From NCBI GenBank assembly GCA_944324895.1, contig CALUYC010000003.1, positions 1 through 35,010 on the forward strand: a DNA stretch of 35,010 nucleotides, given 5' to 3'. Positions 30,713 through 35,010 of the stretch are shown here, in pieces (the first letter of the stretch is position 1; every line of letters starts with the position of its first letter). Source of the stretch: Candidatus Gastranaerophilales bacterium. Lineage in GTDB: Bacteria; Cyanobacteriota; Vampirovibrionia; Gastranaerophilales; Gastranaerophilaceae. A program made the translations under genes and the position numbers. The notes below the pieces were generated by a model. The model was not told the origin of the DNA. It saw only the letters and a list, made by a program, of their open reading frames with translations, and did no database searches.

Positions 30713-31057
30713 ATGAATAAAAACATAAAAATATTTTTAAACAATAAACTAATAGATGCTGATATTTCTTTGCAAGAGTCCTTTCTAAAAAGATTTTTGG
30801 GGTTTATGTTCTGTGCTAAACCAAAGGGCAGAAAAATCCTTATTTTTAAAAATGCCTTTTGGATTCATACGCTTTTTTGTTTTTTTAGGTTTGATGCTGT
30901 TTTTTTAGATGACAATTTTAATGTAATAGCGTACAAAAATAATATTCCACCTTTTTTAATTTTAAAACCAGTTTTCGGAACAAAATATCTTTTGGAAATT
31001 GCAAACGGGTGTTTTGATATTAAAATTGGTGATAAAATAATAATTGATGAGCAGTGA
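30713..31057 (+). CDS. DUF192 family protein
   Basis: A 114-residue protein with the DUF192 pattern: FLKRFLGFMFC, then ILIFKNAFWIHTLFCFFRFDAVFLDDNFNVIAY with the conserved hydrophobic core and Phe-Leu-Asp, and KYLLEIANGCFDIKIGDKIII at the end. The family is a small beta-barrel of unknown function, often exported, though this copy lacks a signal peptide. TAAAAT ends 9 bases before the ATG, so the leader is short or absent and no ribosome binding site is seen. It overlaps uvrC by 11 bases. Confidence 0.85.
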   Translation: MNKNIKIFLNNKLIDADISLQESFLKRFLGFMFCAKPKGRKILIFKNAFWIHTLFCFFRFDAVFLDDNFNVIAYKNNIPPFLILKPVFGTKYLLEIANGCFDIKIGDKIIIDEQ

Positions 31058-32711
31058 TATTAAACAGCAAATTAAGCTTATGCCAAAGCTTCCGGGGTGT
31101 TATCAATACTTTGATAAAACAGGGGAGATAATTTATATCGGTAAAGCTAAAAATCTTTACAACAGGGTTAACAGTTATTTTGTGGGCAAAAAAGATTCGC
31201 CTAAGTTGCAAGTCATGGTACCTCAAATTGTTCGCGTGGAGTGTATTGTCGTTAACTCTGAGGTTGAAGCTTTAATTCTAGAATCCGAGCTTATTAAAAA
31301 ACACAAGCCTAAATATAACATATTATTAAAAGATGATAAAAAATTCCCATATTTTTTAATAACGGATGAGGAATATCCTAGGATTACGGTTGTTCGAAAA
31401 GCAAATAAAAATATGCTCAAGGGAAAATATTTTGGACCTTACACAGATTCTCGCGCCATGTATTGTACATTAGAAACATTGGGTAAAATTTTCCCTCTTA
31501 AAAAATGTAAAACCCCAAAGTTTAAATCAAGACCTTGTCTTTATTATGATATCGGACAGTGTTGTGCACCTTGCCAAAAGTTAATTTCTAGCGATGATTA
31601 CAAGAAAATTTTAAAAGATGTTGAATTATTTTTATCAGGCAGACAAAATGAGCTTTTAAAAGTCATAGAAGCCGAAATGAAAAAAGCCAGTGATAACCTT
31701 GAGTTTGAAAAAGCTGCACGATACCGCGACAGCTATAATGATATTAAAAAGACCATGGAAAAACAAAAGGTTGTTAGTGAAAATACGCGCATTAATCAGG
31801 ATTATGTCGGTATTGTTAAATCTGACTCTTTGTATTGTGCTACAATTTTACAGGTGCGACAAGGCAGACTCATTAATAAAAAAGATTTTACCTTTACTCA
31901 TTATGCAAATTCGCACAATAATGACGTAAATGAAATTATGCAGGCCGTATTAAGAGAATATTATGCTATTATTACTGATACGGAAATTCCCGCTAAAATT
32001 ACTTTATCGCAAACGCTTGACGATGTTGAGTTATACGAAAAATGGTTAAGCGGCAGGCTGGGTAAAAATGTTGTAATTAATGTGGCAAAATCCGCTCGTG
32101 ACAAAGAAATGCTTAATATGGCACAGAATACCGCACAATTTAATTTAGAGCAAGCAAAACTAAAAGAGTTATCCAATATCCAAAATGACTACAATGAAGT
32201 AGGCACTTACCTTATGGAGAAATTAAATTTGCGCAAATTTCCTCATACCATCGAGTGTTACGATATTTCTCATACACAAGGTACAAATACTGTTGCATCA
32301 GGTGTTTATTTTGAAAACGGTATGCCTAAAAAATCAAAATATAGAAAATATAAACTTCAAACTATTAAAAAGGGTGAAGTTGATGATTTTAAAAGCATGA
32401 GAGAAATTTTACGCAGGCGTTTTAAAAGGATTAAAAACGGCGATATTTTGCCTGCAGATTTAATTATTATAGATGGTGGAAAAGGGCAACTTTCAAGCGT
32501 TATAGAAGTCATGCGTGAAATGAATCTTGATTTGGATATTGTTTCTTTAGCGAAGCGCGAGGAGGAAGTCTTTTTGCCTGATAAATCGGAGCCTGTTATA
32601 TTTGCCCTAAATTCTCCCGCACTACATTTGTTTCAAAGAATTCGAGATGAAGCACACAGATTTGCAATTACTTTTCACAGACAGTTGCGCTCAAAGAATA
32701 TGACGCGCTAA
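31047..32711 (+). CDS. uvrC: UvrC excinuclease subunit lacking the C-terminal HhH domain
   Basis: The nuclease of UvrABC nucleotide excision repair. The 554-residue product has the GIY-YIG 3'-incision domain at 10-90 (PGCYQYF, EIIYIGKAKNLYNRV) and a Cys-containing linker (CLYYDIGQCCAPC). The UvrB-interacting UVR motif (NLEFEKAARYRDSYNDI) follows. Last is the RNase H-like 5'-incision domain (IECYDISHTQGTNTVASG, IIIDGGKGQL, RDEAHRFAITFHR) with its Asp-Asp-His residues. It stops just after this block, where UvrC usually continues about 60 residues into a helix-hairpin-helix DNA-binding pair. The following DNA encodes the convergent GT2 gene, so the domain is absent rather than frameshifted. ATG 31047 is preferred to the TTG one codon earlier. 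Confidence 0.93.
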   Translation: MSSDIKQQIKLMPKLPGCYQYFDKTGEIIYIGKAKNLYNRVNSYFVGKKDSPKLQVMVPQIVRVECIVVNSEVEALILESELIKKHKPKYNILLKDDKKFPYFLITDEEYPRITVVRKANKNMLKGKYFGPYTDSRAMYCTLETLGKIFPLKKCKTPKFKSRPCLYYDIGQCCAPCQKLISSDDYKKILKDVELFLSGRQNELLKVIEAEMKKASDNLEFEKAARYRDSYNDIKKTMEKQKVVSENTRINQDYVGIVKSDSLYCATILQVRQGRLINKKDFTFTHYANSHNNDVNEIMQAVLREYYAIITDTEIPAKITLSQTLDDVELYEKWLSGRLGKNVVINVAKSARDKEMLNMAQNTAQFNLEQAKLKELSNIQNDYNEVGTYLMEKLNLRKFPHTIECYDISHTQGTNTVASGVYFENGMPKKSKYRKYKLQTIKKGEVDDFKSMREILRRRFKRIKNGDILPADLIIIDGGKGQLSSVIEVMREMNLDLDIVSLAKREEEVFLPDKSEPVIFALNSPALHLFQRIRDEAHRFAITFHRQLRSKNMTR

Positions 32712-33694
32712 AATCCAAGTATCATGCCAATTTTTTCAAATAGTGTGAGTTTGATAATTTCATTAAGTTCTTTTGAAAATAGTATTTTAATGAAATTGAT
32801 GTCGCTGACGCATTTTTTCAAAAAATCTTTGAAAAACACTCTGTTAAGGGAATATCCGACTTTTATGCCGCTTTCTTTAAGTTTATACATAATTTCCTGT
32901 ACAAAACAAATTAGCAGTTTTAAGTCTTTTGAGGTTACGATATTGTTATTACTGTACTTGTCAATAATAGCAATTACATTAGCGCTGTCAGTATTAAAGT
33001 ATTCACCTTGAGCCATAAACATTAGTCTTTGTGAACCTGCGCTTTGGATAAATGTTTTTCTTTTGGATATACTGTTTTTATGCCATCTGTATTTTAAAAG
33101 CACATCATCTATATTTGAAAAGCTTGTATATTTTATAAGTTTTAGCCACAAGCCGTAGTCCTCACAGACTTTTTCTTTTTCATTGTATTTTAGCTCCTCT
33201 TGCGGGATTTGCGACCTGTTAATCATAACCGCAGGATGACAAATGCAGTTGTGCGAGAATATTAGCGTGTGTTTGATTTCTTCATCTGTTGTTGGTAATT
33301 TTATTTCCTCGTTCTTTGGAAATTTCAAAAAATTAGCACTAATTAGCCCTATATTAGGATTTTTTTCTAAAAATTTAAGTTGTTTTTCAAGTCTTTGGGG
33401 TAATGATATATCATCAGAATCCATTCTTGCAATAAAATTTGCTCTTGAGTTATTTATACCCACGTTTAATGCCCCTGTTACCCCTAAATTTTTCTGATTT
33501 CTAATGTATCTTATTCTGTTGTCATGGTAACTGTCAATTACTGATTTAACATTGTTTTTGGAACAGTCGTCTATAATTATAAACTCAAAATCACTAAAAG
33601 TTTGTTTTAAAATACTTTCAATAGACTCTCTGAGTTCTTCCTCAGGAGTATTATACACAGGCATAATAACGCTTATTTTTGGATTTAATTCCAT
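32708..33694 (-). CDS. Family 2 glycosyltransferase
   Basis: A 328-residue GT-A fold enzyme. KISVIMPVYNTPEEELRESIESILKQT is the GT2 start, FIIIDDCS the nucleotide-binding Asp pair, NLGVTGALNVGI follows, and ARMDSDDISLP holds the metal-binding Asp-x-Asp-Asp. HPAVMINRS and EDYGLWLKL (catalytic Glu-Asp region) complete the domain by about residue 210; the C-terminal 110 residues are helical. It probably adds one sugar to a surface polysaccharide or lipid; donor and acceptor cannot be read. Its TAG overlaps the uvrC stop by 4 bases. It is divergent from the GT8 gene, 37 bases away. Confidence 0.9.
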   Translation of the reverse strand: MELNPKISVIMPVYNTPEEELRESIESILKQTFSDFEFIIIDDCSKNNVKSVIDSYHDNRIRYIRNQKNLGVTGALNVGINNSRANFIARMDSDDISLPQRLEKQLKFLEKNPNIGLISANFLKFPKNEEIKLPTTDEEIKHTLIFSHNCICHPAVMINRSQIPQEELKYNEKEKVCEDYGLWLKLIKYTSFSNIDDVLLKYRWHKNSISKRKTFIQSAGSQRLMFMAQGEYFNTDSANVIAIIDKYSNNNIVTSKDLKLLICFVQEIMYKLKESGIKVGYSLNRVFFKDFLKKCVSDINFIKILFSKELNEIIKLTLFEKIGMILGF

Positions 33695-33731: not shown

Positions 33732-34661
33732 ATGAAAAAGCTAGAATTATGTTTATCAACTGATGATAATTATGCAAAATATGCTTCAACTGTCATTTGT
33801 AGCGCAAATTGCAATAAAAGCGACGATGAGGAACTTATTTTTCATATTTTGTATTCAAACTTAACTGACGAGAATATTGAAAAACTTGCATCCTGCGGTA
33901 ATGTCATTTTTCATAAAATTGATAAAGCAATATTTGAGCCTTATTTTAATAATGGTGTGTGCAAGAACGTAACAATACCCACTCTGTACAGATTGATGTT
34001 GCCTTCACTTTTGCCCAATGCTGATAGAATTTTATATTTGGATTGTGACTTAATTGTCTTAAGCAGTCTTTGGGAGCTGTTTAATGTAGATTTAAATGAA
34101 GACCAATATGCTGCTTGTGTTAAGGATTTAGGTTCAAATGAACATATTAAGCGCATGGGCTTTGAGTTTTCAGGAGACGATTTTTACTTTAACGCAGGTG
34201 TTTGTTTGTTTAATCTTAAAAAAATGCGTCATGAAAATATTCAGGATAAGATGTTTGATTACTTAAAACAAAATTGGCAAAAACTCAACTATTCTGATCA
34301 AGACGTATTAAATGCAGTTTTATATAGACATGTTAAACGCATGGATAAAAAATTTAACTTTATTACTTATAATTTCTATTTTTCAAATGATATTAACCCA
34401 GTTATAGCACATTTTGCAGGTGTAAAACCTTGGAAAGTCGGTTTTTACAATGTTTATCGCGAAATGTTTTGGAAATACTTTTTAATGACTCCGTTTAAAG
34501 ATGATAAAAGTCAAAACATGATGAAAAACTCGGTACTTTTTATGCACAACAGAATTTGCCAAATTTTGTGGTATATAAAAATGTACCCCTTATTTTTTCT
34601 TAATAAGTCACGAATTAGTGATTTTATGCGGATTGTGAGAAATTCCGAAATTAACCCCTAG
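33732..34661 (+). CDS. Family 8 glycosyltransferase
   Basis: A 309-residue retaining enzyme of the GT8 family, which includes lipopolysaccharide galactosyl- and glucosyltransferases. LELCLSTDDNYAKYASTVICSA is the N-terminal nucleotide site, TLYRLMLPSLLPNADRILYLDCDLIVL holds the Asp-x-Asp metal motif, DFYFNAGVCLFNL follows, and SDQDVLNAVL plus AHFAGVKPWK are the C-terminal motifs. A basic aromatic tail (LWYIKMYPLFFLNKS) may associate with membrane. TATTAT ends 6 bases before the ATG with no ribosome binding site, so the message may be leaderless. Its TAG overlaps the stop of the convergent GT6 gene. Confidence 0.9.
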   Translation: MKKLELCLSTDDNYAKYASTVICSANCNKSDDEELIFHILYSNLTDENIEKLASCGNVIFHKIDKAIFEPYFNNGVCKNVTIPTLYRLMLPSLLPNADRILYLDCDLIVLSSLWELFNVDLNEDQYAACVKDLGSNEHIKRMGFEFSGDDFYFNAGVCLFNLKKMRHENIQDKMFDYLKQNWQKLNYSDQDVLNAVLYRHVKRMDKKFNFITYNFYFSNDINPVIAHFAGVKPWKVGFYNVYREMFWKYFLMTPFKDDKSQNMMKNSVLFMHNRICQILWYIKMYPLFFLNKSRISDFMRIVRNSEINP

Positions 34662-35010
34662 AATTTAATGTTGGTTATTTTTGATATCCAGTATTTCAAG
34701 GGTGTGATTTTTTTGTCCGTAATACCCCTTAAGTAAGAATGTCCGCCATATTTCCAGTGCAATTTATTTAACAGTAAACCTTTTCGATTTTTTGTGTAAC
34801 CTTTATATTTCCAGTTTTCAGGAATAGCATACTGGGGTGGAATTATAAGCGGATTTTTATCTAACATATATTTATTTAAATGACTTTCATCATGCCAAAG
34901 CGCAATTATACCTTTTGCAAAATCTTTTCTAATGTTATCTTCAAGCTCTGTGTACATTTGGATAACTTCCTGACGTCTGCCGCCATGCACGCCGCTCATA
35001 AAGTAATGAG
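34658..35010 (-). CDS. Family 6 (ABO-like) glycosyltransferase, N-terminus cut by window edge
   Basis: The minus-strand frame is open to the right edge, giving the last 116 residues; the apparent ATG at 34999 is internal because the frame continues upstream as HYF. HYFMSGVHGGRRQEV and IIALWHDESHLNKYMLDKNP closely match GT6 landmarks, the family of human ABO transferases, alpha-1,3-galactosyltransferase and bacterial relatives such as E. coli O86 WbnI. LIIPPQYAIPENW is equivalent to the family's LSPEYLW block. GT6 enzymes are retaining and add Gal or GalNAc in alpha-1,3 linkage. The metal-site motif (DxD, or NxN in many bacterial members) lies outside the window. Together with the GT2 and GT8 genes it suggests a surface-glycan locus continuing to the right. 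Confidence 0.85.
   Translation of the reverse strand, partial: HYFMSGVHGGRRQEVIQMYTELEDNIRKDFAKGIIALWHDESHLNKYMLDKNPLIIPPQYAIPENWKYKGYTKNRKGLLLNKLHWKYGGHSYLRGITDKKITPLKYWISKITNIKF

Follow-up and report, generated by a model that had tools for sequence, protein, structure and literature searches.

A genus-fixed GT6 glycosyltransferase with a probably altered acceptor site and an apparently mosaic middle segment in gut Gastranaerophilales

The closest described counterpart of the enzyme reported here is BoGT6a from Bacteroides ovatus (PDB 4AYJ, 4CJ8), a blood-group-A-type GalNAc transferase whose product is known. In the sections of PMC3961637 on which we draw, BoGT6a itself yields A-antigen-like products, the NxN motif is tied to metal independence, Glu192 is key in catalysis, Lys231 acts in leaving-group stabilisation, and a table lists contacts of His122 and Thr134 with the sugar bound at the acceptor site. 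The same sections describe human ABO and bovine alpha-1,3-galactosyltransferase as metal-dependent DxD enzymes that have a stem and are type II membrane proteins. E. coli O86 WbnI and Helicobacter mustelae BgtA are bacterial GT6 enzymes that make B-like and A-like antigens (PMC4202792, in part); we liken them to the present enzyme by description only. A 2014 count put bacterial GT6 genes in 36 species (PMC3961637, in part), and these genes have been discussed as horizontal acquisitions (PMC4202792, in part). Judged by titles and the starts of abstracts, none of the papers listed from the openly accessible literature reports GT6 in Gastranaerophilales, Melainabacteria or Galligastranaerophilus.

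The window, that is, the whole stretch of DNA analysed, is one entire contig (C3) of 35010 bases from a MAG of 134 contigs that is 77.8% complete; an overlap partner for its left end was looked for in the genome and none was found. At the other end, an open frame on the minus strand (35008..34658) matches PF03414 Glyco_transf_6 (E 3.3e-12, 46.2-46.9 bits against a cut-off of 25) and the BoGT6a chain 4ayj from the PDB (E 1.6e-10). The following features belong to this gene.

34658..35010, minus strand: 3' part of the GT6 gene, residues 149-264 plus stop (the last 116 codons), with PF03414 and BoGT6a matches; the contig end cuts the gene
34884..35010, minus strand: 127 bases shared exactly with the end of contig C72; genus-mate G010 (L049) has the same sequence here, and the mosaic segment includes this stretch as its right part
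34991..34999, minus strand: donor-site Met152-Ser153-Gly154, aligned with ABO 266-268 and BoGT6a 155-157 (role of ABO 266 and 268 from part of PMC4202792)
34886..34897, minus strand: catalytic-region Trp186-His-Asp-Glu189 (BoGT6a 189-192), placed by alignment; WHDESHLNKY runs from 34897 downward
34763..34765, minus strand: Lys230, aligned with BoGT6a Lys231 (stabilisation of the UDP leaving group; role from part of PMC3961637)

The upstream codons lie on contig C72 of the same genome (7353 bases), at C72:6785-7353. The last 127 bases of C72 are the first 127 of the reverse-complemented window and occur at no third place in the genome. Because this exact end overlap is found at only two places, and because the resulting gene order is that of the genus-mates, we accept the join, which gives an unbroken frame of 264 codons with a GC content of 33.7% (contigs, 33.6 and 33.9%). 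A second complete GT6 copy in the genome is rejected, as the two PF03414 matches are the two halves of one gene. The earlier note on this DNA had assigned the partial frame to GT6 in a gut-type bacterium, rightly on both counts, and had named a missing upstream core or a frameshift as what would speak against the family. The C72 part holds the catalytic core (HFNANMRF, the NxN motif) and scores 85.4 bits with PF03414, and the joined frame is open throughout. The GT6 gene at the window end is thus confirmed, and the choice between DxD and NxN, which the note had left to the complete gene, falls on NxN (FNAN). The GT6 of the closest relative reaches 112.2 bits with PF03414 (cut-off 25); with NCBIfam NF041524, a GT6 subfamily model, it scores 223.2 bits and stays under the cut-off of 250, which is a naming threshold and not a biochemical feature.

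Our structural view relies on the copy L006, which is 88% identical to the joined protein. A first model, built from seven close sequences, was discarded (pLDDT 41); the model from a 50-row alignment has a pLDDT of 91.2 and a pTM of 0.88. It superimposes on the BoGT6a chains with a Z of 33.8 and an rmsd of 1.2-1.4 over 231-240 residues, that is, nearly whole-length at 34-35% identity, and on the ABO and bovine alpha-1,3-galactosyltransferase chains with a Z of about 28-30. As modelled, the closest relative's GT6 has the GT-A fold of GT6 type, and a shared fold shows no product. All 15 genus copies keep Tyr13, Trp66, Asn95-x-Asn97, Trp189-His-Asp-Glu192, Asn196 and Lys231 (BoGT6a numbering), so that NxN, WHDE and Lys231 are common to BoGT6a and the genus. 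ABO and bovine alpha-1,3-galactosyltransferase share the fold and the WHDE region with it, but differ from it in their DxD motif. The likeness to BoGT6a ends in the sugar sites: BoGT6a has HPG with His122, Arg73 and Ala155, whereas the copies of the genus clade lack HP[GSA] and have mostly Lys for Arg73 and Met for Ala155. Moreover, the product of BoGT6a is known, whereas the genus enzyme is read from its sequence and a model.

The acceptor motif HP[GSA] was searched for in the 15 genus copies and is present in none of them, whatever the alignment. In the alignment of the residue table, the His122 column holds Trp in 15 of 15 genus copies and His in 67 of 73 non-genus sequences, the ABO chain included, in which the acceptor His is present. 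Among the latter are all 49 copies from phages and viruses (six from phage records and 43 viral representatives), 3 of 3 Bacteroidota copies and 14 of 20 copies from other Cyanobacteriota, the remainder of these being three Trp, one Leu, one Gln and one Ser. Which residue of the joined protein falls on His122 varies by aligner, phmmer placing Glu117 there and MAFFT with the viral rows His121. In pairwise alignments against it, Trp118 takes the position in 12 of 20 Cyanobacteriota and 3 of 49 viral rows, and His121 in 3 of 20 and 15 of 49, where it is the commonest viral outcome. The loop of L062, which is of equal length, and those of L068 and L069, read ungapped against BoGT6a, favour Trp118. 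Trp in place of the acceptor His122 is accordingly an alignment-dependent assignment, and of the two changes the loss of HP[GSA] alone holds with every aligner. At the Arg73 column, Lys stands in 13 of 15 genus copies and Arg in the other two; Arg is found in 71 of 72 other sequences, including all 49 phage and viral ones. The Thr134 column holds Pro in 15 of 15 genus copies; this change says little, since 13 of 72 others have Pro there as well. As the His of HP[GSA] lines the acceptor site, its loss suggests an acceptor that is probably not of the ABO or alpha-Gal type. The label "ABO-like" given by the earlier note hence holds for the family and does not extend to the product.

The earlier note had proposed to read the residues that fix donor choice. 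Those aligned with ABO 266 and 268 are Met152 and Gly154, and Met plus Gly recur in all 15 genus copies. The pair is mixed, Met being GTB-like (Met266/Ala268) and Gly GTA-like (Leu266/Gly268). In the portion of PMC4202792 consulted, Met266 goes with Gal, GTA has Leu266 and Gly268, and position 268 adds nothing to the difference. With position 266 alone decisive, the residues lean towards Gal over GalNAc as the likelier donor; BoGT6a, a GalNAc enzyme, has Ala there. The residue check thus points in one direction by its Met, while its GTA-like Gly leaves the choice between Gal and GalNAc unsettled.

The gene neighbourhood within the window consists of the following features.

33732..34661, plus strand: GT8 glycosyltransferase gene, convergent with GT6; its only NCBIfam match, to lipopolysaccharide 3-alpha-galactosyltransferase, has 72.6 of 461 bits, far under the cut-off
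32708..33694, minus strand: GT2 glycosyltransferase gene, by family match; missing here in 4 of the 13 genus-mates whose locus reaches past GT8
31044..32711, plus strand: uvrC-like gene, the conserved left flank of the glycosyltransferase group

GT8 and GT6 lie tail to tail with a 4-base overlap, as do their counterparts in 13 of the 13 genus-mates whose contig continues, the fourteenth being cut by its contig end. GT2 is found between GT8 and uvrC in 9 of 13 and is absent from G002, G008, G009 and G011. The abutting GT8 and nearby GT2 genes described by the earlier note are therefore present; its expectation of a surface-glycan locus continuing to the right did not hold. Beyond GT6, C72 carries a lipoprotein-like gene (no family match), a gene for a BlaI-type regulator (PF03965), two genes without a family match and a GT2 gene (PF00535), followed in order by rsmH-, ftsL-, ftsI- and murE-like genes, and a large glycan locus on that side is rejected in favour of these housekeeping- and division-like genes. 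We use uvrC, rsmH, ftsL, ftsI, murE, folP, gpmI and tadE as presumed names; a family search with the tadE-like protein gave no match. In all 14 genus-mates, GT6 adjoins the blaI gene and the lipoprotein-like gene, and rsmH-, ftsL- and ftsI-like genes come next in 13 of them, the fourteenth (L053) ending with its contig. Hence, GT6 occupies one fixed place between uvrC-like and cell-division-like genes and not the edge of a large glycan locus.

The blaI gene is present in 25 of 26 other genomes searched. Three of these have the closest copies, and in two of the three, the sister-genus genomes G511 and G512, GT6 lies about 1-1.3 kb from it. The third, G148, a 98% complete genome of the same genus as G512, is without GT6; at that site it has one gene like a GT2 and another similar to G512's second GT2. 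This distribution implies a site common to the sister genera, at which GT6 would have been gained or lost at least once. In G511 and G512, an epimerase-like gene accompanies GT6.

L110 8350-9321 and L111 6671-7588: GalE-like gene in the two sister-genus genomes, overlapping the GT6 start by its own end; TIGR01179 164-169 bits, under the cut-off of 262.3

Such an overlap points to a donor with an epimerised C4.

Relatives of the joined protein at 71-88% identity come from five Gastranaerophilales MAG records, one "uncultured bacterium" record and Candidatus Galligastranaerophilus intestinavium; these seven loci coincide with those of seven genus-mates among G001-G014 and were counted once. NCBI taxonomy puts Galligastranaerophilus in Melainabacteria, Gastranaerophilales, and the window's genus, by contig match, includes Candidatus Galligastranaerophilus. 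GT6 is present in 15 of 15 genomes of this genus, the window's own included. The family-level sample has it in 33 of 383 genomes, namely these 15 and 18 of 368 outside the genus, in 13 of 40 other genera; the order sample has it in 19 of 286 and the phylum sample in 11 of 386, one of them (G435) from outside the order. None of 14 control genomes has it. In the GT6 tree, the genus copies form one clade (support 100/100) whose sister is L061, a copy from another genus (99/96), followed by L068 and L069 at a weak fork (93/72). Cut or broken copies (L059, L063, L045) were left out of the tree, and cut rows entered the residue tables as gaps; in L059 (G182) and L063 (G249), both from other genera, the GT6 match is in two pieces, and these may be pseudogenes or sequence errors. 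For the three closest pairs within the genus, the dN/dS values of GT6 are 0.02, 0.042 and 0.056, near the values of uvrC (0.013-0.028) and below those of GT8 (0.09-0.10) in the same pairs; only seven GT6 pairs have a dS below 1.5 (median 0.042, highest 0.155). GT6 is under purifying selection, measurable in close pairs.

A phage source of the genus clade was sought by scanning viral contigs with the genus alignment; 87 stretches matched and none was confirmed as a relative. When a mixed GT6 alignment was used for scanning, 325 GT6 relatives were confirmed and 80 of them kept; 43 representatives of these 80 were entered in the residue table and none in the tree. Cyanophage enzymes (P-SSM2, ACG-2014f, B23) share the GT6 family with the genus, at 24-30% identity in the cyanophage rows, but three copies (L077-L079) have DxD and His at the acceptor column and fall outside the genus clade. 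Among 71 phage records with GT6 relatives, 64 are named Synechococcus or Prochlorococcus. In the records L078 and L079, an annotated GT11 gene stands directly upstream of the GT6 match in cyanophage B23 and three genes upstream in ACG-2014f, which is an H-then-A/B type gene set in marine cyanophages. Two unverified "bacteriophage" clones from human faeces (L074 and L075; MT838506 and MT836157) have an NxN GT6; in the tree, the two group together (98/97) amid bacterial copies from outside the genus, and they may be bacterial DNA.

The sugar supply and the possible carrier were assessed across the 15 genus genomes. LpxC is matched in 14, the window's own included. GalE is above its cut-off in 13, again with the own genome, and falls short in G006 and G010; in the latter, a 97% complete genome that has GT6 and GT11, the best GalE match reaches 139.8 of 262.3 bits. 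Gmd is above its cut-off in 13 genomes, with none above it in G006; in the own genome, the match is partial, covering model positions 1-131 of 342 and scoring 234 bits against a cut-off of 415. GT11, the alpha-1,2-fucosyltransferase family, is above its cut-off in 15 of 15 genus genomes and in 0 of 14 control genomes; the own genome's matches lie on contigs other than the window and C72. With GT11 in all genomes and Gmd in 13, an H-type acceptor could exist, and the cells could carry an outer glycan that contains alpha-galactose and fucose.

Taken jointly, we regard as reasonably probable the reading of an NxN GT6 with a changed acceptor site, a UDP-Gal or UDP-GalNAc donor, an outer, LPS-linked glycan as its target and a mosaic middle. 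By its NxN motif the enzyme would very probably be metal-independent, and by its family it would be retaining and form an alpha linkage. The donor should be of the UDP-galactose type, UDP-Gal or UDP-GalNAc, as suggested by the family, by GalE in the genus and by the GalE-like epimerase gene overlapping GT6 in the two sister-genus genomes; G006 and G010, which have GT6 and fall short of the GalE cut-off, speak against it. The enzyme would attach one alpha-linked sugar to one of the gut bacterium's outer glycans, which in view of LpxC and the GT8 neighbour is most likely linked to LPS, and the acceptor would probably not be the Fuc-Gal or Gal-GlcNAc used by ABO and alpha-Gal enzymes.

The earlier note had suggested that host-like alpha-Gal or alpha-GalNAc epitopes could be made. 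In its fullest form this would be host mimicry, GT11 first adding alpha-1,2-fucose and GT6 then a true blood-group-B/A-like or alpha-Gal-like cap, which we consider unlikely. The GT6 catalytic core, the BoGT6a-like fold and the products of BoGT6a itself agree with such a cap, and the genomic setting offers the makings of one: GT11 throughout the genus against none in the controls, and Gmd and GalE each in 13 of 15 genomes. These sugar-supply genes, however, are set against the absence of HP[GSA] from every genus copy and the replacement of Arg73 by Lys in 13 of them, at a position where all phage and viral copies keep Arg. In the window's own genome, moreover, the GT11 matches lie on other contigs and the Gmd match is partial and under its cut-off, and membership in GT11 is no proof of an H-type product.

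A target other than LPS, for instance an exopolysaccharide or a glycan on an S-layer or lipoprotein, appears to us quite unlikely. It would accord with the GT2 that lies four genes past the divergent lipoprotein-like gene and is matched best in NCBIfam by an S-layer N-glycosylation enzyme (131.5 bits against a cut-off of 325), and Melainabacteria are reported to encode an S-layer-like protein (PMC3787301, in part). The genes from the lipoprotein-like one to this GT2, however, are on the other strand and therefore do not form one transcript with GT6; LpxC is matched in all genus genomes but one, and the GT8 neighbour is nearest, if weakly, to an LPS enzyme. The one genome without an LpxC match, G002, is 99% complete and has GT6 and Gmd, which counts against LPS as the only possible carrier.

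The preferred reading includes a mosaic gene. The copy closest to the window GT6 is that of G010 (88%), yet in most flanking genes, blaI excepted, G010 belongs with the most distant genus-mates. Nucleotides 193-569 of the gene are 98% identical to G010 and the gene ends 70%, the mismatches being 58 over nt 1-192, 8 over nt 193-569 and 67 over nt 570-792; identity at third positions is 0.50, 0.96 and 0.33, respectively. The 8 mismatches in 377 middle positions against 125 in 415 at the ends (Fisher p 5e-30) rank first of the 105 GT6 pairs, and the middle-versus-ends contrast is also the largest (0.28, the next being 0.05). A segment search returned nt 193-568 with a likelihood gain of 65.4, the maximum of 20 shuffles being 8.1. 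On this sequence evidence, from one genome, a MAG, we conclude that the middle of the window GT6 apparently came by intragenic recombination between species. The gene's ends resemble G005 and G013 (77-85%) and the middle does not (69-72%), so that the window's lineage was probably the recipient of a G010-like segment. Codons about 65-190, nearly the whole pocket, would thus have been acquired by homologous recombination from a G010-like species.

This pair is not alone in the genus. When the segment search was extended from five genes to twelve, with 1052 gene-pair comparisons at a coarser step, it ranks third with a gain of 63.7, ahead of a fourth at 32.1 and behind two folP pairs, L040/L053 (145.6) and L043/L053 (86.6); in a first scan with a 150-base window, folP and lipoprotein pairs likewise stood above it. 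The folP of G014 (L053) is a clean mosaic, like G001 (L040) over nt 1-703 and like G004 (L043) over nt 694-1144, with the break at about nt 700. Intragenic recombination is hence a habit of the genus and not of GT6. A GT6-specific recombination system is not supported, as there is one strong mosaic among 105 GT6 pairs and two folP pairs are stronger.

The 127-base overlap between the two contigs is the longest stretch identical to G010, is closed by mismatches at gene nt 442 and 570, and coincides with the right end of the mosaic; a co-resident G010-like genome would explain the contig break. That the mosaic and the C72/C3 join are an assembly or binning artefact of a mixed sample, as the fragmented MAG and a break exactly at a G010-identical stretch might suggest, is nevertheless highly improbable, since the left breakpoint (nt 192/193) lies within C72 and nt 1-192 share no identical word above 20 bases with the G010 gene, the C72 segment differs from G010 at 8 sites, the genes of both contigs are similar in identity to the same genus-mates, and the gene order matches theirs.

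Collectively, the sequences indicate a GT6 variant that is fixed in the genus and probably changed at its acceptor site, and in addition one clear swap within the gene. We think it very unlikely that the whole genus, a non-photosynthetic gut group allied to the cyanobacteria, builds a genus-specific surface antigen of fucose and alpha-galactose type through a GT6 of new acceptor specificity, and that its species swap the catalytic pocket by homologous recombination, so that surface-sugar alleles would spread without the rest of the locus. In contrast to the discussion of bacterial GT6 genes as horizontal acquisitions, GT6 is here fixed and conserved in a gut genus, and its glycan therefore probably matters to the cells. 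The swap within GT6 would mean that species exchange genetic material at a sugar-transferase gene, and the genus recombines elsewhere too. The changed acceptor site offers a natural test of the residues that set acceptor choice in GT6 enzymes, and if the product were to react with anti-A, anti-B or anti-Gal, these bacteria would be a further source of such antigens in guts.
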